A DNA stretch of 55,385 nucleotides from an uncultured Oscillospiraceae bacterium (GTDB taxonomy: Bacteria; Bacillota; Clostridia; Oscillospirales; Oscillospiraceae). Shown in pieces: positions 2,036 to 20,062 of this stretch. Each line of letters opens with the position of its first letter. Position 1 is the first letter of the stretch. Position numbers and translations under genes: made by a program. Location: contig CANQMO010000019.1 in assembly GCA_947624985.1 (NCBI GenBank), positions 1 through 55,385 on the forward strand. The letters run 5' to 3'. The notes beneath the pieces were generated by a model. It was not told the DNA's origin and did not search any database. It saw only the letters and a program-made list of their open reading frames with translations.

Positions 2036-2047
2036 TTGCCTCACCTC

Positions 2048-3355: not shown

Positions 3356-4230
3356 GGCTCCGTCTCCTTCGCCTTCTCCATACGCAATACCACATCCGCT
3401 TGCGTGATGACAAAGGATGACCGCTCCGCCGCCACCCGGCGGCACATCAGCAGCTTGTCACGAAGTTTGGCGGTTAGATCTTGTATCCCCCCCCGGATCT
3501 CCGGGTCATCTGTCCAGGCGTGGACCACCACCCGGTCCGGCGTCAACTCTACCCGGCGGATAGCCATATGCTTGCGGAATTCCCGGCGGTCCCTGGCGCT
3601 GGGCATCTTCTCCACATCATACAGGAAGCTTACATTACGCTCGGCAGAAATATCCAGTTCATCTGCCAAACAGATCAGCGCCGCCAAATAGGGCAGACTC
3701 ACCGTTTTTCCCGGCTCTACCTCGAATTGGGGCGGGTAGTTCTTCTCATCCAAAAGGTCTGTCTTCCGGTGCCCCCGGCAGACCTGGATCACAGCCTTTG
3801 CGTAGGCTTCATTGGGAAGGTCCAGCATACGCCAATACTTTTCCAGATACAGTCCGGACAACTCCTGGTGGTGGTCCCGTACAGCCCAGGCCCGGGCGTT
3901 ATCATCCGCCGGCTCCGGAAACCCCAGTACCTCCCGAAACTGCTCAAAGTCCGATACGGACACTCCCATGCCCACATCATGGAACAGCGCGCCCATCAGC
4001 AGCACATAGAGGTCCTCCGCAGTGAGCTTCTCGATCTGGCTGCCAATGAGCTGATTACACAACTCCAAAATATCCAGGGTATGCAGCACCGTATGATCGG
4101 TAAAGTCAGGAAAGTAGTTCACATACCGGCTGAGCATTTTCTGCGAGATCACCACGCAGTCCCGATACCGGCTGTGAAGTTCCGGCGCACATCGGGCCAG
4201 TCTGCGCTCAATGCCATAGTCCTGTTCCAT
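3352..4230 (-). CDS. HD-domain metal-dependent phosphohydrolase
   Basis: A soluble 292-residue protein with a recognisable HD hydrolase core: FTDHTVLHTLDILELCNQL (first His), LLMGALFHDVGMG (the HD pair), DHHQELSG, VCRGHRK and LICLADELDISAERN. These are the metal-binding positions of HD/HD-CE phosphohydrolases, which act on nucleotides or cyclic nucleotides. The start at 4230 has GGGAGG seven bases upstream; in-frame ATGs at 4251 and 4278 are alternatives, the last directly abutting the TAA of the phosphatase gene. It sits between the receptor phosphatase and two purine permeases. I infer nucleotide turnover or a nucleotide-signal readout, but the substrate is unknown. Confidence 0.82.
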   Translation of the reverse strand: MEQDYGIERRLARCAPELHSRYRDCVVISQKMLSRYVNYFPDFTDHTVLHTLDILELCNQLIGSQIEKLTAEDLYVLLMGALFHDVGMGVSVSDFEQFREVLGFPEPADDNARAWAVRDHHQELSGLYLEKYWRMLDLPNEAYAKAVIQVCRGHRKTDLLDEKNYPPQFEVEPGKTVSLPYLAALICLADELDISAERNVSFLYDVEKMPSARDRREFRKHMAIRRVELTPDRVVVHAWTDDPEIRGGIQDLTAKLRDKLLMCRRVAAERSSFVITQADVVLRMEKAKETEP

Positions 4231-4278
4231 CGCGATCCCTCCCTTTTCCATAGCTTCTCTTCCCTTACCGCCTGGCAT

Positions 4279-6807
4279 TTACAGGCGCTTTTCCACGGTC
4301 AGGATGTTCTGGCCGTCCTTGTACTCGTAGCGCACGTCGTCCATGGACTTTTTCACCATGAAAATGCCCAGGCCGCCGATCTGGCGGTCCTCCGCGGAGA
4401 GGGTCACGTCCGGGTCTGCCTTCGCCAGGGGATCATAGGGCTTGCCCTGGTCGATGAACGTGACGCGCACGGCCAGGGGGTCCTGGTCCACGTCCACCCG
4501 CACCGTCGCCGGGCCGGAGGGGTCGTAGGCATACCGGGCGATGTTGCTGAAAAGCTCGTCGATGGCCACGTCTATCTGCACCTGGGCCTTCATGGGGCAG
4601 TCCAGCGCCTCCAGCTGCTGGTCCACAAAGGCGGTCACGGCGGGGATGTTCTCCAATGTGGCCTCCACGGTCAACTCGTTGGGATCGGATGAATTCATCA
4701 TTTTCTTAAACTCCAAGCAAAGCATCGTGATGTCGTCGAATTGGGGCGCGCTGCCCACAAAGGCGTCGATGTCCGCCTTCACCGCCGGCAGAAGCTTATC
4801 CGGCGCGGCGTCCGCATTGCGGTTCAGTACCGTCTCCAGCCGCTCCATGCCGTACAGCTCGTTATTGGCGTTGGTGGCCTCCGTCACGCCGTCCGTGTAC
4901 TGGAACAGCGCGTCCCCCGGCTCCAGCTGCATGGTGCCCATGCGGTATCGGGTCATGTCCATGCCCGCCAGGACGAACCCTGCCCGTATCTTCTCCGGGG
5001 TATACTTTCCCTTCCGGCGGATGAAGGGCATCTCATGGCCGGCGTTGACAAAGTTGAACTGGCCGGTCTCCAGGTCCAGCACGCCCTCGAAGGCGGTGAT
5101 GAACAGCTCTTCGCCGTTTCCTTCGCACAGGAGCTTGTTGACCTCCATGAACACCTCGCCCAGGTCACGGCCCGGGGTGGTGTGATCCTTGATGAGGGTC
5201 TTGCCGATGACCATGAACAGGGCCGCGGGCACGCCCTTGCCGGACACGTCCGCCATGACGATGGCCAGGTGGGTGTCGTCCACCATGAAGAAGTCGTAGA
5301 AGTCGCCGCCCACCTCCTTGGCGGGGTTCATGGAGGCGTAGATATCCACCTCCGGCCGCTCCGGGAAGGCGGGGAAGATGCAGGGCAGCATGGAGCTCTG
5401 GATATGGGTGGCGATATCCAGCTCCGCGCCGATACGCTCCTTTTCCGCCGTGACCTCTGTCAGCTGCCGGATGTGGTCGTTCAGGTCGTCCAGCATCCCG
5501 TTGAAGGCGGACGCCAGCTCGCCGATCTCGTCCCCGGACTCCACCTCCACCTTCCTGTCCAGCTCGCCCTTGCCGATCCGCTCCACGTTCCTAGCCAGCT
5601 TCTGGATGGGCCGGGTGATGCTGCCGGACACGGCGAAGGAGATGATGATCACCACGATACCCACCGCCGCGAAGAAGATGATGAAGCCCTTCATGATGCC
5701 GGACAGGGTCTTCTGGGTGGTTTCCTGCGCCTGGTCGGTCATGGTGTCGATGGTCTGCTTCGTCTCCACGGCGGGGCGCACCACCTCCGCCTTATCCACG
5801 CTGATGCACAGCCGCCATCCGGTCTGGCCCAGATAGTGCCAGGCCAGATAGCTGTCCACGCCGTCCAGCGTCAAGCCCACCAGGCCGGCGTTGGCCTGCG
5901 CCAGGGTATCCAGATTGCCGCTCTGGCTGTCTTTGCCCACATGGGCTGTCAGGTCCGTATCAAAGCCCTCGTCGAAATACTGCGGATGGGCGATCAGGGT
6001 GCCCATTTTGTCGATCACGAAGGCATAGCCGCTCTCGCCGATCTTGGCGGTGGTGATCTCGTCCAGCAGGGCCTGCAGCTTCACGTCCGAGGCCACCACG
6101 CCGAGCAGTTCTCCATCTTCATCGCAGAACGCCCGGGCGGCGGTGATGCACGTGTTGCCATAGGAGTCCAGATATGTATCCAGCCAGACCGTCTTGCCGG
6201 GTTTGGCCGACGCCTGCTGATACCAGCCCCGCTCCCGGGGGTCATAGGTAGGGTCATAGGAATTGGACCGGGAATACCTGTAGGACACGCCGCTGACGGT
6301 GCCGGCATAGATATTGTCCAGCAGGTCGTTTTCCTCCAGCATGGGGCCGAAGATGGACTCGCAGTTGGACAGAAGCTCTATCTCCCGGTCCAGCTTCGCC
6401 GTCTTCTTCACGCCGGGCGCCAGCATATACTTGGAGCTGGCTTCCCCGTCCACCGTCTCGTCCGGCAGGGGCAGCTCCCGGCCGCCGTACCGATCCATAT
6501 TCTCATAAAGATACTCGATGTAGTCCGCCAGGGACGTGACCATCCGGTTGATCTCCGTCAGCTGGGCGTTGGAATACAGCGCCTGCTTCTGAGCGATCCG
6601 CCCCAGGTATTCCTCCGCCTGGGCCTGCAGGGCCTCCTGGCTGTTGTCGGAGGCGGTCAGGCCCAGGGTGATGTTGGTCTTCTGGAATTCATCGGTCAGG
6701 TCCCCCATGGACAGATAGGAGTTGATGAACACCACCAGCAGCGTGCCCAGGGACATGACCAGCACCACCAGCAGGATCTTGATACCGATCTTCATGTTCT
6801 TAAACAT
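4279..6807 (-). CDS. dCache-HAMP-PP2C(SpoIIE)-HATPase receptor phosphatase/kinase
   Basis: 842 residues. There is a membrane helix at about 9-31, a periplasmic double-Cache sensor at about 35-345 (with the signature YDPRERGWY at 188-196), a second helix at 371-395, and a HAMP domain at about 396-449. A SpoIIE/RsbU-type PP2C phosphatase follows at 480-700 (GGDFYDFF 500-507, ADVSGKGVPAA from 519, YTDGVTEA 637-644, FDDITM 690-695). It ends in an RsbW-like HATPase domain at 705-842 with a complete N-box (DELFSN, E751 and N755), DQGKPYDP at 786-793 and GGLGIFMVKK at 811-820. One protein therefore holds both the phosphatase and the serine-kinase activity of a partner switch. Its likely partners are the two STAS proteins of the same block. 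It overlaps the upstream ATP-grasp gene by 8 bp. Confidence 0.93.
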   Translation of the reverse strand: MFKNMKIGIKILLVVLVMSLGTLLVVFINSYLSMGDLTDEFQKTNITLGLTASDNSQEALQAQAEEYLGRIAQKQALYSNAQLTEINRMVTSLADYIEYLYENMDRYGGRELPLPDETVDGEASSKYMLAPGVKKTAKLDREIELLSNCESIFGPMLEENDLLDNIYAGTVSGVSYRYSRSNSYDPTYDPRERGWYQQASAKPGKTVWLDTYLDSYGNTCITAARAFCDEDGELLGVVASDVKLQALLDEITTAKIGESGYAFVIDKMGTLIAHPQYFDEGFDTDLTAHVGKDSQSGNLDTLAQANAGLVGLTLDGVDSYLAWHYLGQTGWRLCISVDKAEVVRPAVETKQTIDTMTDQAQETTQKTLSGIMKGFIIFFAAVGIVVIIISFAVSGSITRPIQKLARNVERIGKGELDRKVEVESGDEIGELASAFNGMLDDLNDHIRQLTEVTAEKERIGAELDIATHIQSSMLPCIFPAFPERPEVDIYASMNPAKEVGGDFYDFFMVDDTHLAIVMADVSGKGVPAALFMVIGKTLIKDHTTPGRDLGEVFMEVNKLLCEGNGEELFITAFEGVLDLETGQFNFVNAGHEMPFIRRKGKYTPEKIRAGFVLAGMDMTRYRMGTMQLEPGDALFQYTDGVTEATNANNELYGMERLETVLNRNADAAPDKLLPAVKADIDAFVGSAPQFDDITMLCLEFKKMMNSSDPNELTVEATLENIPAVTAFVDQQLEALDCPMKAQVQIDVAIDELFSNIARYAYDPSGPATVRVDVDQDPLAVRVTFIDQGKPYDPLAKADPDVTLSAEDRQIGGLGIFMVKKSMDDVRYEYKDGQNILTVEKRL

Positions 6808-7750
6808 CGTCTTCCTCCCTCCCGGCGCCGTTCCAGGCGGACAGCAGGATGTCCTCTACCATGTCCTCGTAGACCACGCCGGAATAGGCCGCCTCCCGGG
6901 GCATCAGGCTCCCCCGCTTCAGGCCGGGGACCGCGTTGATCTCCAGCACATAAAACGCACCGGTGTCATGGGCCACCATGAAGTCTACCCTGCCCACGCC
7001 TCTGGCGCCCGTGATCTTAAAGACCCGCTCCGCCGTGCGCTCCATATCCACCAGCGTTTTTCCATCCAGACGGGGCGGCTCTGTGCCGTACTCGCCGGTG
7101 AAGAGGGTCAAGTCGTTTTTCTTTTCCACCCGGGCGCCGGAGAGGGTCTCCACGCCCTCCACGCATTTGAGGGTCACCAGCTGGCCGTCCCGCTCAAAGA
7201 GACCCACCGTGTAAAAGCCTCCGTCGATGAACTGCTCCAGCAGGATCGGGTCGTCGTATCCGAACACGAGCCTTATCTTGTCCAGGTCCTCCGGGGAACG
7301 GATCAGCTCGATACCGAAGCTGCCGCCCTGGGTGGGCGCTTTCGCCACGAAGGGGTAGCCGAAGCCGCTGTAATCAAAATCTCCCCGCTCATACTGCTCC
7401 CGGCTGAGGATCGCCCACCGGGGCGTCGGGATGCCATAGTGGTCAAAAAGGAGCTTGCACAGGATCTTGTCGTTGATGAGCGCGGCCGCCCTGGCGCCGC
7501 TGCCCGTAAAGGGGATGCCCTCATGCTCCAGCATGGCCTGCAGGGTGCCGTCGCCGTGGCGCTTGCCCTGTACGCAGAGATAGACGATATCCGCCTTCTC
7601 AGCGCGCAGGGTCTGGACCATATCGCGCCCAAACGCCAGCATACACACGTCGTAGCCCTTGGCCCGCAGGACGTTTTCGATCGACTTGGCGTTCTTGGCG
7701 GAGGCCATGGCCTCGCTGGACCAGCCGCCGTATACGACCGCGACCTTCAT
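6800..7750 (-). CDS. D-Ala-D-Ala-ligase-like ATP-grasp enzyme
   Basis: 316 residues with the Ddl layout: MKVAVVYGGWSSEAMAS (the Ddl GG.S.E motif), then GDGTLQAMLEHEGIPFTGSG, INDKILCKLL, the ATP-grasp part with PFVAKAPTQGGSFGIELI, LEQFIDGGFYTVGL, GVGRVDFMV and LEINAVPGLKRGSLMP. The ATP- and metal-binding elements are therefore present. Ddl proteins make the D-Ala-D-Ala dipeptide of peptidoglycan. This one is embedded in a signalling/transport operon (4-bp overlap upstream, 8-bp overlap downstream), so it may join other substrates. I would not call it the housekeeping ddl without biochemical data. Confidence 0.85.
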   Translation of the reverse strand: MKVAVVYGGWSSEAMASAKNAKSIENVLRAKGYDVCMLAFGRDMVQTLRAEKADIVYLCVQGKRHGDGTLQAMLEHEGIPFTGSGARAAALINDKILCKLLFDHYGIPTPRWAILSREQYERGDFDYSGFGYPFVAKAPTQGGSFGIELIRSPEDLDKIRLVFGYDDPILLEQFIDGGFYTVGLFERDGQLVTLKCVEGVETLSGARVEKKNDLTLFTGEYGTEPPRLDGKTLVDMERTAERVFKITGARGVGRVDFMVAHDTGAFYVLEINAVPGLKRGSLMPREAAYSGVVYEDMVEDILLSAWNGAGREEDDV

Positions 7751-9648
7751 GCTCTCACTCTCCTTTTACCACCCAATATCTCGGTCAGCACATAACAGAC
7801 CACCGCCGCCAGAAACAGCGTGCCCATGGCGGTCAGTCCCCGCTCATAGCCCAGCAGGATGACCACCGAATAGGCGGTAGGGCCCAGCATTTCGGTGATC
7901 TTCTTCAAAAAGCTCAGACAGGACAGGCTCCTGCCAGAATTCATGTTGGCGATGGCGGGCATCGCCAGAAAATAGTTGTTCTGCGCGCCGAAGCCAAAGC
8001 TGTCCGCCACGCCCAGGAACACCACCGCCGCCAGCGACGCCACCATGCCTCCCACCAGGCCCGCTGTAAGCAGGCCCACAGAGAAGATGATGTTATAGGC
8101 GATGTTCGCCCAGATGAGGTTCTGGGACTTGTCGATGATCTTCGCCGACAGCCACGGCCCCAGATAGACGATGAGCAGCCCGTAGATCAGCTGCGCCCGG
8201 CCCACGTCGGATACGCTCCTGCCGATACTCTCATAGTACAGCGGCAGATAGTAGCTCAGATAGGAGCCCACGATACAGGACGGGGCGATCATGAACACGG
8301 AGAAGGAGACGATCTGCAGCTTCTCCCGAATATGCAAGGGGCTCCGCTCCCGCTTTTTTTCGGTCTTTTCGTTTTTGGGGAGCACCGTGTTCTCCATCCG
8401 GATGATGAACGCGCTGCACAGCACAGTCAGCACCGTGGCCATCAGGAACACGTTCCGATAACCGAACCGCTCCGCCAGGATAGACCCTAGCGCCGAGCCG
8501 CAGTTCATCCCGGCGTAGAGCCCGGCGTTGAGCATGGAAAAGCCCCAGGTCTTTTCCTTCTCGTTCCGGCCGAACAGCGCCAGATTGCGCAGCGTCATCC
8601 AGCAAAAGCCGTACCCCAGCCCCACCACGGCCCGGGCCGCGATGAACACCAGCAGATCCGTGGCCATGGCGCTGAGGAACGTGCCCAGCGCCACCAGGGC
8701 AAGCCCCGCCATGAAGGGCAGCTTCCACCCCTTGCGGGTCAAAAGCTCCGTGGCGGCGAAGATGGCCACGCAGGTGAGCAGCGTCTCGGCGGACTGGGGC
8801 ATGCCCGCCGCCATGTTCGCGTCCATCCCGAACAGCGACGAGTGCAGCTGCTTGGCCATGATGGGGATGAAGGCCGCGGACAGACGGGAGGCAAAGTAGA
8901 ACAAAAACGCCGTCTGCCGCACAAAGTACAGGGCGGCCGGCTGGTCCTTCGTCTCCCGGCTCCGGCGTGTCACCAGGCCGATCATGCCCCACACCATCTC
9001 CACAGAGAAGAACACGGATATGACCAGCGTAGTCAGCAGATCGAGCCAGATGGAGAATATCTGCCGCGTCCTGTATTGCTCGTTGACCCAGAACACGACC
9101 TGGGAGTCGTTGATAAAGGGGAACTCATACCGCTGCATCCCCTCTTTGCCCGCCAGCAGCGCCGCCCCGGAGGACACGCGGGTGTTCCCGTCGCTGTCGA
9201 TGATATACACGCCCTCGCAGCTGGAACTGGACCGCACGGTGTCATCCAGGATCTCGCCGATCTCGTCGCTGTCCCCGGCGGTCTCCAGGCGGTTTATCAT
9301 CCGGCGCATATCGCCGTACATCTCATAGCGCAGCTGCTGGTCCTTCTGGGAATACGAGGCGAAGGAGAACGCCAGCAGGATGACCACCAGCACGGAGACC
9401 ATCATCGCCAGGATATTGCCTGTCTCCACCTCGCCGTACACATTCAGCGCCGGGCCCTTGAGGAAGAACACGGCGATCGTCACGATGGCGGCTCCGCCCA
9501 GGATGAAAATGCACAGGTGCAGCATTTGCTGGATGCTGCCGCTCTCGTTCATGTTCAGTATCCAGAGGAAAAGCAGGTCGATCATGATGACTACCACCGC
9601 TCCGATGAGCAGCGCCAGCCTTGTTCGCTTGTTTTGCACGCGTTCCAC
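7747..9648 (-). CDS. MFS transporter with N-terminal membrane-anchored sensor-like domain
   Basis: 633 residues, far longer than a normal MFS carrier (about 400). The first 230 residues hold three helices (about 12-32, 42-65, 79-97). They are followed by an extracytoplasmic stretch of about 100 residues containing YIIDSDGNTRVSSG, which resembles the core of a single-Cache sensor, and a fourth helix at about 196-220. An ordinary MFS body follows (LLVFIAARAVVGLGYGFCWM, ILAERFGYRNVFLMATVL, two halves of six helices). The sensor/transporter arrangement is unusual. It overlaps the ATP-grasp gene by 4 bp and follows the STAS gene by 14 bp. Substrate unknown. Confidence 0.83.
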   Translation of the reverse strand: MERVQNKRTRLALLIGAVVVIMIDLLFLWILNMNESGSIQQMLHLCIFILGGAAIVTIAVFFLKGPALNVYGEVETGNILAMMVSVLVVILLAFSFASYSQKDQQLRYEMYGDMRRMINRLETAGDSDEIGEILDDTVRSSSSCEGVYIIDSDGNTRVSSGAALLAGKEGMQRYEFPFINDSQVVFWVNEQYRTRQIFSIWLDLLTTLVISVFFSVEMVWGMIGLVTRRSRETKDQPAALYFVRQTAFLFYFASRLSAAFIPIMAKQLHSSLFGMDANMAAGMPQSAETLLTCVAIFAATELLTRKGWKLPFMAGLALVALGTFLSAMATDLLVFIAARAVVGLGYGFCWMTLRNLALFGRNEKEKTWGFSMLNAGLYAGMNCGSALGSILAERFGYRNVFLMATVLTVLCSAFIIRMENTVLPKNEKTEKKRERSPLHIREKLQIVSFSVFMIAPSCIVGSYLSYYLPLYYESIGRSVSDVGRAQLIYGLLIVYLGPWLSAKIIDKSQNLIWANIAYNIIFSVGLLTAGLVGGMVASLAAVVFLGVADSFGFGAQNNYFLAMPAIANMNSGRSLSCLSFLKKITEMLGPTAYSVVILLGYERGLTAMGTLFLAAVVCYVLTEILGGKRRVRA

Positions 9649-9662
9649 TGTCAGTCCGCCGT

Positions 9663-9962
9663 TCAGCCCTCGATGGTCAGGATATCCGCAAAGCCCGTGA
9701 CTTCAAATATCTCCATGATCGTCTCGTTCACGTTTTTGATCACCATGGACCCCTGCTTGTTCATGACCTTCTGGGCGCTCAAGAGCACACGCAGCCCCGC
9801 CGAGGACAGATACTCCAGCCCCGCGAAGTCCAGCGCAAGCTCCGTGACGCCGTCCACGCTCTGCTTCAGCTCCGCCTCCAGCTGGGGCGCGGTGGTGGTG
9901 TCCAGCCGGCCCTCCAGGGCCAGGTCCAGATGGGAACCATTCTGATTTTTCGTGATAGTCAT
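9663..9962 (-). CDS. STAS-domain anti-anti-sigma-type protein 1
   Basis: A 99-residue single STAS domain of the RsbV/SpoIIAA type. It has LEGRLDTTTAPQLEAEL, ELALDFAGLEYLSSAGLRVL and a C-terminal helix ending in FADILTIEG. The phosphorylatable serine of the family corresponds to S54 in YLSSAGLRVL. In partner switches such proteins are phosphorylated by an RsbW-type kinase and dephosphorylated by an RsbU/SpoIIE phosphatase; the receptor at 4279-6807 has both. No sigma factor is encoded nearby. It is very similar to the STAS protein at 19766-20062. It starts 34 bp after the NCS2 gene with a good GGAGG-type ribosome site. Confidence 0.93.
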   Translation of the reverse strand: MTITKNQNGSHLDLALEGRLDTTTAPQLEAELKQSVDGVTELALDFAGLEYLSSAGLRVLLSAQKVMNKQGSMVIKNVNETIMEIFEVTGFADILTIEG

Positions 9963-9996: not shown

Positions 9997-11403
9997 TTAA
10001 TGCGTCACAAAGAACATGACGGCAAAGAGCGCCGCGATCACCCATGTTCCCGCTTTTACGTTCTTTGCCTTTCCGGTAAACACGCTGATAAGCGTATAAG
10101 AGATCACGCCGAAGGCAATGCCGTAAGAGATATTGTAGGTCATAGGCATCATCGCCAAAGTCAGAAACGCCGGGACCGCCTCCTCTGTTTTCAGCCAGTC
10201 TATATTCCTGGCGCAGTTCATCATCATGATCCCCACATAGATGAGCGCCGCCGCTGTCGCGCAGCCCGGTACGAGCTTCGCGATCGGGCTCAAAAACATG
10301 CTGGCAAAAAACAGCGCCCCCGTCACCATGGCGGCCATGCCTGTCTTTCCGCCCTCCGCAATGCCTGTGGATGCCTCCACATAAGAGCTCACCGTGGATG
10401 TGCCGCAGATCGCGCCGGCCGTGGTGGCTATGGCGTCGGCAAGCATCGCCTTGTCCATGTTGGGCACTTCCCCCTCTTTGGTCAGAAGATCTCCCCTGGC
10501 ACAGGCTCCATACAGGGTGCCGATCGTATCAAACATATCCACCAGACAGAACGCGAGGGCAGTCGTTATGATCAATATGGCAAGCTCCACCCTGCTGTGA
10601 TCGGCCAGATAGGGAGAAAAATCAAGGCCCTCCGTAAAGACCCTGCCAAACGCATGCCTGCCAAAGTCCCCAAACGCCGCGAACGGGTCAAAATTCAGCT
10701 CGGCTGTAAAACCATTATAAAATCCGGGAACAGTTAAACCGAGAAGGTAATACAGCGCCGTTCCCCCCAGTATGCCCCAGAGCACAGCGCCCTTTACCCG
10801 CTTACATGTCAGGACCGCGATCGCGATCAAAGCGGAAAGTGTGACAAGCATCGGCATGATGTCCTTCCACGCCACATTTCCGGAAAGAAGGTTGAAAGAG
10901 GCAAGGCCCACATAGGTGGATGGATCTGCCACCACGATCCCGGAATCCTTCAGCCCGATGAAGGCGATAAACAGCCCGACTCCCGCGGGGATCGACACTC
11001 TTACCGCCGTCGGGATCGCCTCAAATACTTTCTTTCGCAGTCCTGTCACCGTGAGCAGTATGAACAGGATCCCATCAAGCAAAACGAGTACCAGGGCATT
11101 GGCATAGCTGAGCCCAAAGCCGAAGCACACCGTATAGACAAAGAAGGCATTGGCGCCCATGGCGGACGCCTGCGCCAGCGGCAGATTCGCCAGAAGCCCT
11201 ATCAGCACCGTCCCGATACAGGCGGAGATCGCCGTCGCGATATAGATCGCGTTGTAGGAAACCCCCGGAAGCTCCGCAAACATGCTGGAATTGACCATGA
11301 GGATATATGCCATGGTCATAAAGGTCGTAACGCCCGCCAGAACTTCCGTTTTTGCTGTAGAGCCAGCTTCCTTTACATGAAAAAATTTTTCCGGTGATAA
11401 CAT
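9997..11403 (-). CDS. NCS2/AzgA-type purine permease
   Basis: 468 residues. The pattern is that of the AzgA/PbuG adenine/guanine/hypoxanthine permeases: EKFFHVKEAGSTAKTEVLAG, VTTFMTMAYILMVN, AQASAMGANAFFVYTVCF, and TSTVSSYVEASTGIAEGGKTG in the middle. It is more canonical than the two NCS2 genes at the end of the block and is the best candidate for a true purine importer. It has the longest untranslated gap in the block before it (79 bp), so an internal promoter is possible, though I see no convincing one. Confidence 0.93.
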   Translation of the reverse strand: MLSPEKFFHVKEAGSTAKTEVLAGVTTFMTMAYILMVNSSMFAELPGVSYNAIYIATAISACIGTVLIGLLANLPLAQASAMGANAFFVYTVCFGFGLSYANALVLVLLDGILFILLTVTGLRKKVFEAIPTAVRVSIPAGVGLFIAFIGLKDSGIVVADPSTYVGLASFNLLSGNVAWKDIMPMLVTLSALIAIAVLTCKRVKGAVLWGILGGTALYYLLGLTVPGFYNGFTAELNFDPFAAFGDFGRHAFGRVFTEGLDFSPYLADHSRVELAILIITTALAFCLVDMFDTIGTLYGACARGDLLTKEGEVPNMDKAMLADAIATTAGAICGTSTVSSYVEASTGIAEGGKTGMAAMVTGALFFASMFLSPIAKLVPGCATAAALIYVGIMMMNCARNIDWLKTEEAVPAFLTLAMMPMTYNISYGIAFGVISYTLISVFTGKAKNVKAGTWVIAALFAVMFFVTH

Positions 11404-11482: not shown

Positions 11483-13069
11483 TTATGTCCGGCTTCTCAG
11501 GGTATCCATGTCCAGCATATCCAGCGAACCGCCCAGGTCCGTCAGGGCCATCTGCAGGCAGAACAGGTCCGACGACGTGGCGATGAATTCCAATATCACG
11601 TTCAGGGCCGTTATGATGGCCACGCCCTCCATCGGTATGCCCAGCTGGGTGAACAGCAGCGTGTAGCACGTCAGCGCCGACCCCGGCACCGGCGGGGCCG
11701 CGATGGCCAACATCACGCAGATGAAAAGCGCCGTCAGCAGCCACGCGGGGGTGATGGCCACGCCGTATACCTCCGCCATACAAAGGCTGGCGACCAGAAA
11801 CATCACCACCGCGCCGGGCATATAGATGACCTGCCCCAGGGGGATGCCGAAGCGGGTGATCTTCTCATGTATGCCCAGCCGCCTTTCGCAGCACTCCTGG
11901 TTGGTGGGAAAGGCTGCCACGGAGGACGCGGTGGTCAGGCCGATGAGGAAGGTGGGCATGGTCTTTTTGAGCACTGTCACGGGCCCGACCTTCCACCGCA
12001 GGCACACCAAAGCCAGGCTGCACGCCATCATTACCGCCGTGCCCAGGACTATGACGGGGAGGAGCTTATAGGACTTGGCCAGGAGCCGGAACCCGCCCTC
12101 CAGGAACATATTAAAGACACTGCCGAACACGAACACGGGCACCAGAGAGCTGACCGCCTCCATGATGAGCTGGACCACATAGTTGGACTGCTCTATGAAC
12201 GTGGCTGCCACGGAGACCTTCTCTCCCAGAAGCAGCAGCGCTATGCCGATGAGCACCGCCACGAAGATGATCTGCAGGGGGTTGCCCTCCGTGAAGGGGG
12301 TGAAGAAGTTGGCCGGCACGATGTCCAGCACCATGTCCAACAGTTCCGACGGGTCGAAGGCACGGCCGCCCCCCGCGGCTATGGGGAAGAAGGGCAGCAC
12401 GGCCGCCCCCGCGATGATCCCCAATACGACCGTGAACAGAATGAGCTTGGCGATCATCCGTTTGCCGATCCGGCCAAAGGAGGCCACGTCGCCAATGCAG
12501 CATATACCCCAGGTCACCGACAGGAAGATCATAGGGCCGGATATGGCGGTGAGAAGGCCCATGAAGGTATTGAACACCGGGGTGACCAGTTTATCCGAAA
12601 GCGCGAGGCGCGCCGCCTCCGGCAGGAAACGGCACAGATAGCCCAGCGCCACCGCCAGCACCAGGGCGGCGGCCAGGGAGCCCATGAGGGAGCGCTTTTT
12701 CCGCTTGGGGGTGAACAGGACGCGGTTGACCCCGTCCTTGTACTGCCACAGGGGCGCCAGGCCCATCTGGGCCATCATGCCCGTCAGCGCGCCGCTGTCG
12801 GGCTGGTCCTCCTCCGAAAAGGGGGCCAGGGACGGGCCGGACAGAGAAAGCTCCACCCGCAGGGCGCGAAAACGCCGGCGGCAGCGCAGGGTGAATCCCT
12901 CCGCCGTCCCCTCGTCCCGGTACCGCAGCAGCGCCTCCTCCAGAGCCAGCCGGACCCGGAGGGCGTTCTTCCGCTCCACCTTGGCCGCCGTGAGAAAATC
13001 ATAGGCGGCCTCCCCGGCATCATCGATGCCGGGCCCGGTCAGTTCATATCTCTCTTCTGTGTTTTCCAT
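11483..13069 (-). CDS. RsbW-like (pseudo)HATPase domain fused to SDF cation:dicarboxylate/amino-acid symporter
   Basis: 528 residues. Residues about 6-123 form a soluble domain with the layout of an anti-sigma HATPase: RVRLALEEALLR in the N-box position, SGPSLAPF at the G1 position, TGMMAQMGLAPLW, and a final strand YKDGVNRVLF. The receptor's genuine HATPase ends with YKDGQNILTV. The N-box asparagine is replaced by arginine, so kinase activity is unlikely. From about 127 on it is a sodium:dicarboxylate symporter (SDF/DAACS) with eight hydrophobic segments, LIGLTTASSVAAFPTN (serine-rich reentrant loop) and PPVPGSALTCYTLLF. It is closely similar to the next gene upstream. The start at 13069 is chosen by matching the paralogue; an in-frame ATG at 13075 lies just before it. 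Confidence 0.88.
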   Translation of the reverse strand: MENTEERYELTGPGIDDAGEAAYDFLTAAKVERKNALRVRLALEEALLRYRDEGTAEGFTLRCRRRFRALRVELSLSGPSLAPFSEEDQPDSGALTGMMAQMGLAPLWQYKDGVNRVLFTPKRKKRSLMGSLAAALVLAVALGYLCRFLPEAARLALSDKLVTPVFNTFMGLLTAISGPMIFLSVTWGICCIGDVASFGRIGKRMIAKLILFTVVLGIIAGAAVLPFFPIAAGGGRAFDPSELLDMVLDIVPANFFTPFTEGNPLQIIFVAVLIGIALLLLGEKVSVAATFIEQSNYVVQLIMEAVSSLVPVFVFGSVFNMFLEGGFRLLAKSYKLLPVIVLGTAVMMACSLALVCLRWKVGPVTVLKKTMPTFLIGLTTASSVAAFPTNQECCERRLGIHEKITRFGIPLGQVIYMPGAVVMFLVASLCMAEVYGVAITPAWLLTALFICVMLAIAAPPVPGSALTCYTLLFTQLGIPMEGVAIITALNVILEFIATSSDLFCLQMALTDLGGSLDMLDMDTLRSRT

Positions 13070-13124
13070 AGGCATTCCTCTTAAAATACGAAGTCCGATA
13101 GGTATTTCCGATTTCTTTCCCCCT

Positions 13125-14715
13125 TCACGTCCGGCTTCTCAGGGCATCCACGTCCAGCATATCCAGCGAGCCGCCCAGGTCCGTCAGCGCCGTCTGCAGG
13201 CCGAACAGGTTCAGCGCCGTGGCGAGAAACTCCAGTATCACGTTCAATGCCGTCATGATGGCCACGGCCTCCATGGGTATGCCCAGCTGGGTGAACAGCA
13301 GCGTGAAGCAGGTGAGCGCCGACCCCGGCACCGGCGGGGCCGCGATGGCCAGCATCACGGAGATGAACAGCGCCGTCAGCAGCCACGCGGGCGTGATGGC
13401 CACGCCGTATGTCTCCGCCATGCACAGGCCTGCCACCAGATGCAGCACCGCCGCGCCGGGCATATAGATGACCTGCCCCAGGGGGATGCCGAAGCGGGTT
13501 ATCTTCTCGTCTATGCCCAGCTGCCTTTCGCAGCACTCCTGGTTGGTGGGATAGGCCGCCACGGAGGACGCGGTGCTCAGGCCGATGAGGAAGGTGGGCA
13601 TGGTCTTTTTCAGCACCGTTATGGGCCCGACCTTCCACCGCAGGCACACCAGGGCCAGACAGCATACCATTACCACCCCCATCCCCAGCACCACGACGGG
13701 GACGATCTTATAGGACCGGGCCAGGAGCCGGAACCCGTCTCCCAAGAACATATTAAAGACGCTGCAGAACACGAACACGGGGACCAGAGAGCTGATCGCC
13801 TCCATGATGAGCTGGACCACGTAGTTGGACTCCTCTATGAACGTAGCCGCCACGGAGACCTTCTCCCCCAAAAGCAGCAGCGCCACACCGATGAGCACCG
13901 CCACGAAGATGATCTGCAGGGGGTTGTCCTCCGTGAAGGGGGTGAAGAAGTTGGCCGGCACGATGTCCAGCACCATGTCCATCAGCTCCGATGGGTCGAA
14001 GGCCTGGCCGCCCCCCGCGGCCATGGGGAAGAAGGGCAGCACGGCCGCCCCCGCGGCGACCGACAATACGACGGTGAGCAGGATGAACTTGGCGATCATC
14101 CGTTTCCCGATGCGGCCGAAGGAGGCCACGTCGCCGATACAGCAGATACCCCATGTCACCGAGAGGAATATCATGGGCCCGGATACGGCGGTGAGTAAGC
14201 CCATAAAGGTGTCGAAAACAGGCGTGACCAGCTTATCCGCTAGCACCAGCCGGACCGCCTCCGGCAGGAAACGGCACAGATAGCCCAGCGCCACCGCCAG
14301 CACCAGGGCGGCGGCCAGTGAGCCCATGAGGGAGCGCTTTTTCCGCTTGGGGGTGAACAAGACGCGGTTCGTCCCGTCCTTGTACTGCCACAGGGGCGCA
14401 AGGCCCATCTGGGCCATCATGCCTGTCAGCGCGCCGCTGTCGGGTCCGTCCTCCTCCGATAAGGGGTCCAGGGATGGGCCGGGCACGATGAGCTCCACCC
14501 GCGGGGCGCGAAAACGCCGACGGCAGCGGAGGGTGAACCCCCCCCCGCTTGTCATCCTCGTCCCGGTAGCGAAGCAGCGCCTCCTCCAGAGCCAGCCGGA
14601 CCCGGAGGGCGTTCTTCCGCTCCACTTTGGCGGCCGTGAGGAAGTTGTAAGCCACCTCCCCGGCGGCGTCGATCCCGGGCCCGGTCAGCTCATATCTCTC
14701 TTCTGTGTTTTCCAT
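13125..14715 (-). pseudogene. Second pseudo-HATPase/SDF symporter, frameshifted at a G9 tract (possibly phase-variable)
   Basis: A tandem near-copy of the gene at 11483-13069. The first frame (from ATG 14715) encodes MENTEERYELTGPGIDAAGE and the N-box-like LALEEALLRYRDE. It then runs into nine consecutive G on the minus strand (C run 14538-14546) and goes out of frame. The second frame resumes with FTLRCRRRFRAPRVEL and continues intact through the whole SDF transporter to 13125. Losing one G (eight) restores a single reading frame with the residue pattern of the paralogue. A second, unlikely start is the internal ATG at 14555. Either the tract is a phase-variation switch, or the gene is broken, or there is a homopolymer sequencing error. 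The N-box Asn is again Arg. Confidence 0.8.
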
Positions 14716-14730
14716 AGGGATCCTTCTCCA

Positions 14731-17700
14731 TTAAAATACAACGGTCACTGTGTTGACCCCGTCGGCATAGGCGTGCGCGCTGCTCTTGGTCCGGCTGAGA
14801 GCCAGAGCCGTGCTGATCTCATCTCCCTGCGTCAGCGGATCGAACTTGTCCCCGCTCCAGCGGATAACGGCTTCGCATTCGCTTCCGTCTTCACTGCAAA
14901 GGGCGTCGAAGCTCAGGCCGCACCCGTCGTCCGGCAAGGCCGGCAGTATGCTCGTCACGCACAGCTCTTCAAAGATCTGCTGATACTTGAGCGACTGGGG
15001 CGCGCCCAGCAGCTGCTTGCGGGCAAAGCGGTCGATGTCGGTCGCCGCACCGATAAAGTCAAACTCCTTGGATGCAATATCGATATGGAGGGTCTTCAGG
15101 CGGTGGACGAACGCCCGGCAGCGGTCGGTCTTCGGGTGATCATACACCTGCTCCGGCGTTCCTTCCTCGTAAACGATGCCTTCGTCCATGTAAAATACCC
15201 GCGTGGATACATCCCGGGCAAACTTCATCTCGTGCGTAACGATAAGCATGGTCAGCCCTTGCTCGGCCAGGCTGCGGATGACCGCCAGCACCTCTCCCAC
15301 CATGGTGGGGTCCAGCGCGCTGGTCGGCTCGTCAAACAGTACGATCTCCGGCTGCATTCCCAGCGTACGGGCAATGGCGACACGCTGTTTTTGGCCGCCG
15401 GAAAGCTCGTCCGGGTAGTTGAGCGCCTTTTCCGCTAATCCCACCTTGGCCAGCAGACGCATGCCCCGTTCATAGGCCTCCTGCCGGGTGCAGCCAAGTA
15501 GCTCTACCGGCCCCAGCATGATATTTTCGATCACCGTCAGATGGGCGAACAGGTTGAAGCTCTGGAATACCATTCCCATGCGGCGGCGCACGGCGCCGAG
15601 CTGCGCCGGCTTCACGCCGGTCACCGGCTGGCCAAACACCTCGATCTCGCCTTCCGTGGGCGTTTCCAATCGGTTGATGCAACGCAGGAAGGTGCTCTTG
15701 CCCGTACCGGAAGGTCCGATGATGGAGATGACGTCCCCCCGGTTTATGACGGCGTTGACATCCTTTATGGGCGTCGCGTTGGGAAAAACCTTCTTCAAAT
15801 GGGAGATGGTGATCACCGGTCCCCCGTTTTGCGCGGCCTTCGGTCCTTCCGGGATCTCCGGCAGGGAAACTTCCCTGTCGACTCCCTTCGGTTCCCGGCG
15901 CCGGCGGCGGGGGTCGATCTTCCTTTCCACCAGTCCCAGCAGAGAGGTCAGGCACCATGCCAGCAGGAAATACAGGACCGCGGTCAAGATCAGCGGGAAA
16001 AACGCCTCAAAGGTACGGCTGCGGATAAGGTCGGTCACCTTGGTCAGGTCCTGCACCGCGATATACCCCACCACAGACGTCATTTTCACCATGGAGATGA
16101 ATTCGCCCTTGTATACCGGCAGGATATGCCGCGCCGCCTGGGGCGCGATGATCTTTGTAAAGGTCTTGACCCGTCCAAAGCCCATGGCGGACGCCGCTTC
16201 CCACTGGCCGGCGTCCACGGCGTCGATACCGGTGCGGATCATTTCGGAAACATAGACGCCAAAATTGATGGTGAAGCCGATGATGGCCACGACGACCCCA
16301 TCCAGTCTTGCGCCGGCGAATACGACGTAGAACAGTACCATCAGCAGCACCAGCACAGGGATACCCTGGATCAGCCGGACAAAGGCCGCCGCGATCCCGG
16401 ACGCAATCTTGCTGCGGCTGCGGCGCAGCAGACACAGACCGAAGCCCAGCACCGTGCCGAACAGAGCCGAAAAGAGCGATATGACGAACGTGACAGCCAA
16501 GCCGGAGAGGATCATTTGCCACCGGTTTTCCTGGATGAAATTCTTATAAAAGCTGTTTTCCAGTCCGGCCCAGAAGCCCGTTTCTTCCGCTTCTACAGCC
16601 ATGCCCATATCTTCGCCCCGGACCACGAGCGCCAGGCCGCCCACATAGTGGGTGGTGGGGAAATCGATGCTCGCCTTCCGCTCATCGGTGATGCTCATGG
16701 CGCCGGATACGATATCCGCCCGGCCGCTGTTCAGCATCTGGATCAGCGAATTGAAGGTGCTTTGGGTGATCTCCAGCTTCATCCCCAGCTCTTTGGCGAT
16801 GAGCGAGACCAGCTCCACCTCATAGCCAAGGGACTGGCCGTTCCCGCCCGCATAGCTCATAGGCTCCAGCGTGGGGTCATGGGCATACCGCAGGGTGCCG
16901 TTGGGCGCGTCATATTCCCCTACATCAATGGTCTTTTTGCTGTCGTCGGCGCTCAGCCATTTTTCCCGCAGGGCGTCCAGCGTGCCATCGGCCGTATATC
17001 TTTCAATGATAGCGCTTATATCATCCGTCAGCGGGCTGTCCTTTTGCAGGCCCAGGCCGTAGGTGTCCGGCGCCACCGTCTCGGGGAACACCGCCAGATC
17101 GGGCTGCCTGACCGCCGCCAGCTGGGCAACGGGCATATCGAGGGCCACGGCGTCCAGCGTGCCCGACTGCAACGCCAGAAGCAGAGCGGAAGCATCATCG
17201 TAATACTGAAATTCACAGCCGCTGACCACAGCGCTCATAAGCTCGTTGGAAATGCTGCCCGACATGACGCCCACGGTCGTACCGGCAAAATCCTGGAGCG
17301 TCTGGAAGCGGACAGCGTTTTGGCCGCGATTGGCTACCACCGCCACCACGCCGCCGGTGTAATCCGGGTCGGCGAAGTTCACGCTTTCCGCCCGTTCCTC
17401 CGTCACGGTCAGGCCGACGGCCGACACGTCGTACACACCGGTGGCAAGACCCGCGAAAATGGACGATATCTCCACGCTGGTCACATCCAGCCCATAGCCA
17501 TAGGCCTTGCAGAAGCGGGCCATGATGTCGATGTCATACCCGACGACCTGGCCATTCAGGATATAGCAGAAGGGCGCCAAGTCCGTTTTCACCGCCATGT
17601 GGATGACGCCGTTGTCCGCCGGGAAGGCCGTCCAGTCCTCCACCACCTTTTTGCTCTCGTCGGCGCCCAGCCAGATGCCGTCGATCTCCTCCAGGGTGCC

Positions 17701-18159
17701 GTCCGCCTTGATCTGCTCCAAATATTCGTTATACTCGTCCCGCAGCGCCGCGCCCCGGTCAGTCTTCGCAAAAGCGGCGGCGTAGCTCTCATCCACCAGC
17801 ACGTCGGACAGATAGGTCACCGCCGGGCTTTCCACGCACAGCATACGGGCAATGGGTTCGTCCATCAAAAAGCCGGCGATCTTCCCCTGCTCCACCGCCA
17901 GCGCCAGGTCCGGGACCTTGTCATAATACTGCTTGTCCGCGTCCTCGATGAGCTCGTCGGTGAGCACGTCAAAGCTGGAGCCGGTCAACACGCCGATGGC
18001 CTGTCCGTCCAGCTGACGGATATCGGTTATCTGCTCGCTTTCCCCGCCGCCGCTTTTCGCACAGCCTCCGAGAAGCAGGCTGATAAGCAGGACCGGCAGG
18101 ATCAGGTAAAGGCAGAATTTCCTATTATGCTTTCTGAAAAATTGATTGTTTTTCATCAT
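14731..18159 (-). CDS. Amino-acid ABC transporter in one chain: binding lobes, permease, ATPase and C-terminal pseudo-HATPase
   Basis: 1142 residues. A lipoprotein signal ends at C33 (LLLGGC). Residues about 38-525 are SBP_bac_3 material, apparently a C-lobe, a full two-lobe module and a final N-lobe ([23 protein letters not shown]). Residues about 529-750 form a HisM/GlnP-type permease ([17 protein letters not shown]). Residues 782-1018 are a GlnQ-type ATPase with Walker A GPSGTGKS at 815-822, LSGGQKQ at 919-925 and [10 protein letters not shown]. The last 120 residues again look like an RsbW-type fold: QIFEELCVT at the N-box, WSGDKFDPL at 1101-1109 and [10 protein letters not shown] at 1131-1140, with Thr where Asn is needed. 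Its start overlaps the upstream stop (ATGA). Confidence 0.9.
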
Positions 18160-19745
18160 GATACGCTCCTTTTCAGCCTGTTTTTGTCAAGCATATCGAC
18201 GCCGTCCGCCGCAAGCGTTACCTGGACCTGCAGGCAGGCAACGCCGGCAGCCGTCATAAAGAAGTCCAGAATCGCATTGCCTGCGACCGCCAGGGCAAGC
18301 GCCTCGCTGGGAACGCCAAGCTGTGCAAACATAACCGTAAATACGGAAAGGGCCCCGCCGGGGATCGGCGGCAGCGCCATGGAAAGAAGCCCTACCGTCA
18401 AAACCGACATGAACAGGAACAGCGGCGTAATGGGAATGCCATAAGACTCCGCCATGCACAGGGCCAGAGAAAAAAGGCCGACCACAAAGCCCGGCTTGTA
18501 AAGGACCTGTCCCAGCGGGATGCCAAAATCCGCTATCTTTTTGGGAATGCCCAGTTCCTTTACGCACGTCTCCAGATTCGTCGCAAGGGCCGCGGCCGAG
18601 GAAGCCGTCGTCAGGGCGATCAGATACGTCGGCAGCATTTTCTTCATCAGAAGGACAGGGCTGACCTTCAGCCGCACCGCCGCCACAAAGACATAAAACA
18701 ATGTCAGGATAAAACACCCCGGTACCACGATCACAAACACCTTGAACAGGCTTGAAAATCCGCTGTCAAAATCGGACAGAATAAGGTTAAACAGGCTTAA
18801 AAACACAAACAGCGGAATGGTTTTTCCCAGTACGCTCATCAGGAACTGTACGGCCTCGTTCACCTGCAGCAGGGTATTTTGGGCTGCCGATACCCGCTCC
18901 CCCAGGATCAAAAGGGCGGCTCCCACGCAGATCCCCAAAAAAACAAGCTGCAGCGCATTTCCATTCAGGAACGGCGAGACGATATCCGTGGGCACGATCT
19001 CCAGTACCATCTGATAGACCTCCCGGAAATTGCCGGAGATCTCATTTCCCGCTTCCGCGGCGATCGGAAACAGCAGGCAGCCCACCAGTGCCATGACCAC
19101 CCCCAAAACAAATGTCCCCGCGATCATTCTTAAAATCAGTTTTTTGCCAACTCTGCCTACTACCGTCAGATCGCCAATACTCACGATCCCGCAGCAGACA
19201 GCCAGAAACACGAGCGGAGAGGAGACCGCGCGAAGCGCCCCCAGGATCATATTGAACAGGGGCTCTGTGACCGAAAGAGCCGCTGTCTGCATTGCCGGGG
19301 ACCGCCTCATGGCGGAACCCAGGAACACCGCCAGAAAAACCGCGCACAAAAGCACAGCCACCTGTCCCATGGATGACTTTCTTTTCTTAGGATTGCAGAC
19401 CAGACAGTTTTTCCCGTTCTTATAAGCGTATGTAAACGACAGCCCTGCCTGCGAGAGCATATGGCTGCTGAGTATCAACGCCTCGTCATCCCATGGGTCT
19501 ATGGCCGGGCCGTCTACGCTTATTTTCAAAAAAGCCCGTCCAAATTTCTGCCCGCAGTCCACATGGACCAAAGCGCCCGCCAAAGATTCGAGCCAGACGC
19601 CGAGGATCTCCTCCAGAGACAGGCGGATGCGGATGATATCCTTTTTATCCGCCCCGGCCTCAGTAAGCGTCTGTACGCAGATCTCGGATACCGCGTCGAT
19701 CGTCATCGGGGTCAGTCTGAAGTTTTCATCGCGACTGCTTACCAT
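18156..19745 (-). CDS. Pseudo-HATPase domain fused to SDF cation:dicarboxylate/amino-acid symporter (divergent copy)
   Basis: 529 residues with the same architecture as the genes at 11483 and 13125 but clearly diverged. The N-domain has [12 protein letters not shown] (N-box position, Asn replaced by Val), VDGPAIDPW at 77-85 and YKNGKNCLV at 108-116. Residues about 125-529 are the SDF transporter ([35 protein letters not shown]). Members of this family import C4-dicarboxylates, glutamate/aspartate or serine/threonine with Na+ or H+; the ligand here is not evident. It follows the STAS gene by 20 bp and is translationally coupled to the ABC fusion gene. Confidence 0.88.
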
Positions 19746-19765: not shown

Positions 19766-20062
19766 TCACTCGATGGTCAAAATATCTGAAAAACCCGTGA
19801 CCTCAAACACTTCCATGACCGTTTCGTTCACATTTTTAATGATCATTTCACCCTGCTTGTTCATGATCTTCTGCATGGCCAGAAGCACGCGCAGACCGGC
19901 GGACGAGATGTACTCCAGCTTCTCAAAATCGATCACAAGGCCAGTCAGGCCATCGATACTGCCCCTGAGTTCTTCCTCCAGCTTCGGGGCAGTCGTGGTA
20001 TCCAATCTCCCCTCCAGTTTCACGGTCAAAGTCGTTCCGGTTATTATCTTTTGAATGTTCAT
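19766..20062 (-). CDS. STAS-domain anti-anti-sigma-type protein 2
   Basis: A 98-residue RsbV/SpoIIAA-like STAS domain: LEGRLDTTTAPKLEEEL, LVIDFEKLEYISSAGLRVL (putative phosphoserine S54) and VFEVTGFSDILTIE. It differs from the STAS protein at 9663-9962 mainly in surface positions, suggesting two partners or two targets. It lies immediately upstream of the divergent symporter fusion, as the other STAS gene lies next to permease genes. The ribosome site GGAGGT is clear on the minus strand just upstream. Confidence 0.93.
   Translation of the reverse strand: MNIQKIITGTTLTVKLEGRLDTTTAPKLEEELRGSIDGLTGLVIDFEKLEYISSAGLRVLLAMQKIMNKQGEMIIKNVNETVMEVFEVTGFSDILTIE

Follow-up and report, generated by a model that had tools for sequence, protein, structure and literature searches.

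RsbW-like pseudo-kinase domains fused to SDF, ABC and MATE transporters: candidate docking sites for small STAS proteins in Clostridia

Sigma-factor release is what partner switching is mainly known for, and several STAS outputs (SypA, RbaV and HmpV) lack an established direct target (PMC8256260). Here we describe a locus in which a candidate target class for such proteins becomes visible. The window, by which the whole analysed stretch of 55,385 nucleotides is meant, is contig C19 from the genome of an uncultured Oscillospiraceae bacterium (87.6% complete, 44 contigs), and it encodes RsbW-like domains, called modules in the following, fused to SDF transporter proteins and to an ABC transporter. 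With the anti-sigma serine kinases RsbW, SpoIIAB and UsfX the modules share the fold, the order of strands and helices, the closing hairpin and the neighbouring STAS and SpoIIE genes. Unlike these kinases they lack the ATP-site residues and form part of transporter proteins, and the operons examined yielded no sigma factor.

Three other described arrangements come close. The small STAS protein MlaB binds an ABC transporter, as is putative for the STAS proteins of this locus, and phosphorylation control via a conserved Thr has been raised as a possibility; in contrast to the situation here, MlaB binds the ATPase MlaF itself, which is without an RsbW-like domain, and neither an RsbW kinase nor a SpoIIE phosphatase is mentioned in the accessible text (PMC7367683). 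SLC26/SulP carriers likewise have one half of a partner-switch pair attached to a secondary transporter, but with them it is the STAS half (PMC8256260), whereas our locus has the RsbW half joined to the transporter and a free STAS protein. CbrA and actinobacterial SSS proteins with HATPase_c (together with GAF and PP2C_SIG) combine a transporter domain with a GHKL ATPase; they differ by the N-, D- and G-boxes, which are stated to be conserved in SSS sensor kinases, and by the transporter family, and the accessible text mentions no free STAS partner (PMC7918813). Transporters with a bound or built-in STAS protein and transporter–kinase fusions are thus known already. The architecture with RsbW-like pseudo-kinase domains is counted as new because RsbW-like domains fused to SDF, ABC or MATE proteins were not found in the open-access literature as judged by title and start of abstract, in agreement with an earlier note on this DNA that knew of no described family.

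The same note had assigned one shared module to four polypeptides, at the N-terminus of the SDF proteins and the C-terminus of the ABC fusion. All motifs are present, on the minus strand, but the middle SDF protein is split into two frames. The module-bearing genes are the following.

18156..19745, minus strand: SDFa, RsbW-like module (residues 1–126) and SDF core, motif EEILGV (sequence, Pfam)
19362..19745, minus strand: RsbW-like module of SDFa, residues 1–128 as modelled
14731..18159, minus strand: ABC fusion of solute-binding domains, BPD permease, ABC ATPase and RsbW-like module, motif EELCVT
14734..15105, minus strand: RsbW-like module of the ABC fusion
13125..14715, minus strand: SDFb, module and SDF core in two frames (14715–14233 and 14555–13125), frameshifted in the assembly
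11483..13075, minus strand: SDFc, RsbW-like module (12692–13075) and SDF core, motif EEALLR

The frameshift of SDFb is located at a run of G, and the two halves of its module are matched separately by the profile. Since the relatives L038, L040 and L046 possess two adjacent copies, both intact, it is regarded as a recent lesion or an assembly error.

The relationship of the modules to RsbW is too distant for standard domain searches. Neither Pfam nor NCBIfam gave a GHKL match to the modules of the window proteins, in Pfam up to an E value of 10, and the gathering score of HATPase_c_2 (PF13581; 27.4) is not reached; among eight other module proteins five showed weak HATPase_c_2 matches of 12–14 bits and three none. 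After removal of modules with more than 88% identity (SDF from 97 to 59 plus two of the window; ABC from 52 to 27 plus one of the window), hhalign aligned the SDF modules (61 rows) with 11 genuine HATPases taken from loci of this type at a probability of 97.4% and a score of 69.9, and the ABC modules (28 rows) at 97.2% and 67.3. Both module families also match each other (96.9%). A chance resemblance is ruled out by 200 column-permuted controls for each family, which reached at best scores of 22.2 (SDF) and 19.5 (ABC) and probabilities of 7.0% and 2.8%. Controls with STAS, SpoIIE and reversed alignments all remained below 2%; with only 0.2% (SDF) and 0.1% (ABC) to STAS, a misreading of STAS tails as modules was rejected. 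A loose pattern of the closing hairpin (Y or F, 2–5 residues, G.N) occurs in 61/61 SDF modules, 26/28 ABC modules and 10/11 genuine HATPases, bearing out the closing strand that had been proposed as common to modules and HATPase.

AlphaFold models point in the same direction. They were obtained with a predicted local distance difference test value (pLDDT) of 93.2 and a predicted template modelling score (pTM) of 0.88 for the ABC module, and with 85.3 and 0.79 for the SDF module. For both models the structure-comparison lists, a second look by VIA-align at the top 1000 of Foldseek and not a search of its own, are headed by RsbW, SpoIIAB and UsfX (PDB 6m37, 1th8, 1tid, 8ih8). SiaB (12.8 for the ABC, 7.4 for the SDF module) and LvrC (10.2 and 7.2) are also listed, and histidine kinases come after, at 7.6 or lower. 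The comparison with RsbW and SpoIIAB that the earlier note had suggested therefore did not lead to a fold unrelated to GHKL. A search of PDB sequences with the module profile gave chance-level matches only, from which it follows that sequence search is too weak for these modules, and nothing more. Searched over 391 Clostridia genomes, the profile of the ABC modules hit 30 at E up to 1e-5; weaker matches fell on frames of other sizes, many of 137–153 and some of 535–954 amino acids, and the two short ones that were read (L217, L218) are typical RsbW-like proteins with EExxxN, DxG and GGLG. Profile alignments and predicted structures together show the RsbW-family origin of the modules and assign them the GHKL fold of the RsbW subfamily.

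In the ATP site, the N-box Asn, the G1 Asp and the G2 motif GGLG are each found in 11/11 genuine HATPases. The reading of EEALLR, EEILGV and EELCVT in SDFc, SDFa and the ABC fusion against DELFSN of the receptor encoded in the window could be confirmed. With copies of 98% identity removed, as in all recounts given here since earlier censuses of ABC modules and SDF cores had counted some genes twice, N occupies the Asn position in 6/97 SDF and 4/65 ABC modules; otherwise scattered residues are found there, and one further SDF row has a gap. Because some distant ABC-borne modules retain N, namely as EELVIN (L084/L085) and EEIMMN (L087/L089), the loss stated in the earlier note is typical, not universal. 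The G1 Asp is absent throughout (0/61 SDF, 0/28 ABC modules), and so is the G2 motif GG[LI]G (0/61 and 0/28). Of the EE pair, SDF and ABC modules keep the first Glu without exception, and the second position holds E or D. At the same time the modules are under purifying selection, as shown by ratios of nonsynonymous to synonymous substitution rates of 0.10–0.27 in six comparisons, similar to the rest of the proteins. They are thus conserved domains for which, judged by the residues of the ATP site, ATP binding in the usual mode is very unlikely.

A third carrier was found in the same loci. MATE transporters bear a C-terminal HATPase_c_2 domain that passed the Pfam cut-off in 3/3 tested cases (37–66 bits), and three unrelated transporter families, SDF, amino-acid-type ABC and MATE, thus carry an RsbW-like domain. 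Besides the fusion type, ABC modules are found on separate ATPases with a length of about 360–380 amino acids. By their motifs the MATE tails represent a graded decay of the active site: L129 (19540–21261) retains N-box Asn, G1 Asp and GGLG, L098 (1782–3743), L143 and L144 retain Asn and Asp, L153 (6464–8221) has lost the Asn, and L095 (17784–19532) and L131 (19245–20951) have lost all three. A profile of the MATE tails matched genuine RsbW-like proteins, MATE fusions, the receptor of the window and three ABC-borne modules (G148, G472, G201). In three MATE loci (L257:11701–13308, L258:8451–10040, L262:7139–8701) proteins of 520–535 amino acids were observed that have STAS and genuine HATPase matches in one chain.

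The module genes of the window belong to a run of 13 genes on the minus strand, from 20062 to 725; several of them overlap, and no gap between neighbours exceeds 79 bp. Its order is STAS2, SDFa, ABC fusion, SDFb, SDFc, an NCS2 permease, STAS1, an MFS transporter, a Ddl-like protein, the receptor and an HD-CE protein, with two NCS2 permeases at the end. The partner-switch genes among them are these.

19766..20062, minus strand: STAS2, single-domain STAS protein of 98 amino acids, motif YISSAGLR (Pfam STAS 1e-17), heading the run
9663..9962, minus strand: STAS1, single-domain STAS protein of 99 amino acids, motif YLSSAGLR (Pfam STAS 7.9e-16)
4279..6807, minus strand: receptor with dCache, HAMP, SpoIIE (4708–5280) and genuine HATPase_c_2 (4291–4665) domains, motif DELFSN (Pfam)

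The S.GL motif of the STAS proteins is present in 44/44 distinct STAS-only proteins from related loci. For the receptor, Pfam gave E values of 1.2e-22 (dCache_1), 8.8e-16 (HAMP), 1.7e-43 (SpoIIE) and 4.6e-22 (HATPase_c_2).

This neighbourhood recurs. A scan of named genomes, limited to the best 80 of 117 relatives, yielded 78 module-SDF loci; in 76 of these a single frame covers both module and core. A STAS gene was found in 34/78 of these loci compared to 1/20 plain-SDF loci of related genomes, SpoIIE in 22/78 compared to 0/20 and a genuine HATPase in 20/78 compared to 0/20 (Fisher test; the 20 control loci were hand-picked from plain-SDF matches in 99 related genomes). L186 contains the sole STAS match of the control loci. 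Since many loci are close kin, the 76 one-frame loci were clustered, a step applied to module loci only. At 70% module identity STAS was present in 16, SpoIIE in 13 and HATPase in 11 of 25 clusters, and at 50% STAS was present in 7/10. Compact examples are L052 (SpoIIE, SDF with module, STAS, RsbW-like kinase) and L085 (STAS, SpoIIE, kinase, permease with solute-binding protein, ABC with module). In relatives the separate genuine RsbW-like kinase has about 135 residues, while in the window it is located on the receptor itself. Twelve MATE loci, hand-picked from the matches of the MATE-tail profile and without a MATE control set, contained SpoIIE in 10, HATPase in nine and STAS in seven cases. 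These counts show that the setting of the modules is enriched in partner-switch genes and that the linkage is recurrent. Near module-SDF genes, STAS domains were also seen fused to proteins that, judged by eye, resemble a phosphotransferase in one case and methyltransferases in the others (L054:1572–2756, L054:3135–4487, L055:4521–5774).

A cognate sigma factor was not detected close to the operons. Sigma70_r2 had no match on the window contig or on the operon contigs of six of eight other genomes examined; in the remaining two the nearest match lies at a distance of more than 60 kb (G088) and of about 9 kb (G002), so that in 9/9 genomes none lies closer than about 9 kb. In the genome of the window the searches detected three STAS proteins. 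Two belong to the operon, and the third is encoded on C18 in a SpoIIA-like locus, with an RsbW-type and a sigma gene as neighbours. Two HATPase_c_2 domains are above the cut-off (C18 and receptor), and of three SpoIIE-type matches that of the receptor is by far the strongest with 153 bits compared to 75 and 27. The operon STAS proteins have one visible kinase and no sigma factor visible nearby; besides that kinase, the RsbW-like surfaces to be seen are those of the modules.

From this genomic context and by elimination we infer that the modules probably serve as docking sites for the small STAS protein of the operon, with the transporter as output of the partner switch, a reading we hold with moderate confidence. 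The dCache domain of the receptor would sense an extracellular ligand, whereupon the SpoIIE domain would dephosphorylate STAS, and the genuine RsbW-like HATPase, part of the same receptor in the window and a separate protein elsewhere, would re-phosphorylate it. Unphosphorylated STAS would leave the genuine kinase and dock on the pseudo-kinase module of the SDF, the ABC or, in relatives, the MATE protein. Docked STAS would then alter transporter activity after translation, with transporters as partner instead of a sigma factor. In this scheme the binding of STAS and its dependence on phosphorylation are putative, and so are the sign of the effect and the direction in which information flows. 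Of the docking pseudo-kinases postulated in the earlier note, the RsbW-type GHKL homology and fold and the loss of ATP-site residues hold, while the docking of STAS is the probable part. The missing G1 Asp and G2 motif, the MATE carrier, the graded decay and the Na+ motif missing from the SDF cores are additional to that note.

The transporter cores themselves have to be considered at this point. The SDF domain (PF00375) is recognized in the SDF proteins of the window with E values of 2.3e-63 and 8.3e-57, and their homologues in the PDB are aspartate and glutamate transporters. In module-SDF cores, however, NMDGT is replaced by YMPG or YKPG-like sequences. Read from an alignment to an aspartate transporter, the NMDGT Asp is retained in 1/104 module-SDF compared to 15/18 plain SDF cores, the last Asp of transmembrane helix 8 (TM8) in 1/104 compared to 18/18 and the TM8 Arg in 0/104 compared to 14/18 (128 and 20 cores before removal of copies). 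At 70% identity the values are 1/22 and 7/10, 1/22 and 10/10, and 0/22 and 6/10. The NMDGT Asp and the last TM8 Asp are residues of the Na+ site. With this motif lost, the SDF proteins may not be ordinary symporters; the cores may depend on a different ion or substrate, or transport may be absent altogether, and the proteins could be altered carriers or receptors. A loss of transport does not follow from the loss of the Na+ site, because CbrA, though without the Na+-site residues, transports histidine, apparently with a proton gradient (PMC7918813). In the ABC fusion Walker A, signature and Walker B motifs are intact.

Several observations weigh against docking with the transporter as output. 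The residues lost from the SDF cores make transport activity itself uncertain. In the available stretch 44/78 module loci are without STAS and 41/78 without STAS, SpoIIE or HATPase, 12 of the 78 stretches being shorter than 10 kb, and all three are missing from 8/25 clusters at 70% module identity. Three more HATPase_c_2 matches of the window genome lie below the cut-off (21–24 bits, frames of 417–518 amino acids); because of these and of the completeness of 87.6% the elimination argument is not watertight. In 15 hand-picked genomes, 14 from loci without local switch genes and L158 with SpoIIE, STAS was found somewhere in 14/15 and a SpoIIE-type phosphatase in 15/15, with a strong SpoIIE match (E 1.2e-43 or better) in 13, but sporulating Clostridia have STAS- and SpoIIE-type genes anyway. 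As main rival, the transporter could act as the sensor: substrate occupancy would change the sequestration of STAS, free STAS would act on a target unseen here, such as an unlinked anti-sigma factor or kinase, and the SDF proteins would be receptors without Na+-coupled transport. The substituted Na+ motif of the module-SDF cores agrees with this, and CbrA, an SSS transporter joined to a histidine kinase, is a precedent for a transporter domain linked to a kinase (PMC7918813). The Walker and signature motifs, however, make a pure receptor role unlikely for the ABC fusion, no sigma factor was found on the window contig and no STAS/RsbW pair in the genome beyond C18 and the operon, and we consider this explanation rather unlikely.

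Less probable by far is a pairing of the modules with the genuine kinase as pseudo-kinase subunits that anchor or tune it at the membrane, STAS binding being secondary. RsbW proteins are dimers, the modules have the fold and subfamily of the kinase, and a genuine kinase domain is found in 20/78 loci; yet STAS accompanies the modules more often (34/78), and in 19 of those 20 loci the kinase domain belongs to the SpoIIE receptor. It is also very improbable that the modules bind a nucleotide or another small molecule as ligand-sensing regulatory domains without STAS partner. C-terminal regulatory domains on amino-acid ABC ATPases of the MetN type are a known layout and the EE/ED pair is conserved, but against it stand the loss of the N-box Asn, the G1 Asp and the G2 glycines and the linkage of partner-switch genes to the modules and hardly to plain SDF genes. 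We give equally little credit to a relic or a purely structural domain, for instance for trimer or dimer assembly, without signalling role. While the loss of catalytic residues and the eight clusters without linked switch gene would suit it, the domain is carried by three unrelated transporter families, is under purifying selection and is linked to STAS and SpoIIE genes. Docking of STAS with the transporter as output is thus preferred. Its extension to a general post-translational switch is more doubtful, but conceivable: at least three unrelated transporter families would have gained RsbW-derived STAS receptors, one SpoIIE/STAS/RsbW circuit would gate several carriers at once without a sigma factor, and the SDF members would have abandoned Na+-coupled transport for a role as signalling receptors.

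The architecture is sporadic. An SDF match covering the module was obtained in 16 of 99 related genomes, that of the window included (11 in the genus, two in the family, three in the order), and full-length relatives of SDFa with 27–89% identity likewise in 16/99. Among 391 evenly sampled Clostridia genomes the SDF module occurs in 10, including the window, or in 9/223 genera. In one genome of this sample (G233) stops were noticed within the SDF-module match. The 78 loci of the named-genome scan reject copies within a single genome as the source of the module. An artefact of metagenome-assembled genomes was rejected as well, since records titled as strains (L129, L156, L160, L161, L167) carry the architecture. 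The records of the scan include Blautia schinkii DSM 10518, Sporofaciens musculi, Petralouisia muris and Lachnospiraceae bacterium 3-1, and two metagenome-assembled genomes labelled in their records as Sphaerochaeta and Spirochaetales also carry module-SDF loci.

The remaining genes of the run are listed below.

9997..11403, minus strand: NCS2-type permease (Xan_ur_permease, Pfam) without module, in the same gene run as the SDF genes
7747..9648, minus strand: MFS transporter (Pfam), in the same gene run as the SDF genes, module not found
6800..7750, minus strand: protein presumably of D-alanine–D-alanine ligase (Ddl) type, named from sequence only
3352..4278, minus strand: HD-CE domain protein (PF24391), at the downstream end of the run
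725..3445, minus strand: two more NCS2 permeases, closing the run downstream

The MFS transporter has 633 amino acids with the MFS match beginning only at residue 247; for the N-terminal part Pfam gave nothing at E 0.01. A homologue of the Ddl-like protein is located at the corresponding place in L036/L094. As listed, the frames of the HD-CE protein and the first downstream NCS2 permease overlap by 94 bp.

If the modules are indeed STAS receptors, they would provide a concrete target class for STAS proteins and add a new level at which transporters of gut Clostridia are controlled, cultured carriers such as Blautia schinkii DSM 10518 included. With an apparently near-intact kinase domain at one end (the MATE tail of L129) and the dead ones on SDF and ABC proteins at the other, the series may record the path from a kinase to a docking domain. 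A switch known for gene control may here, as is suggested by these loci, act directly on transporters.

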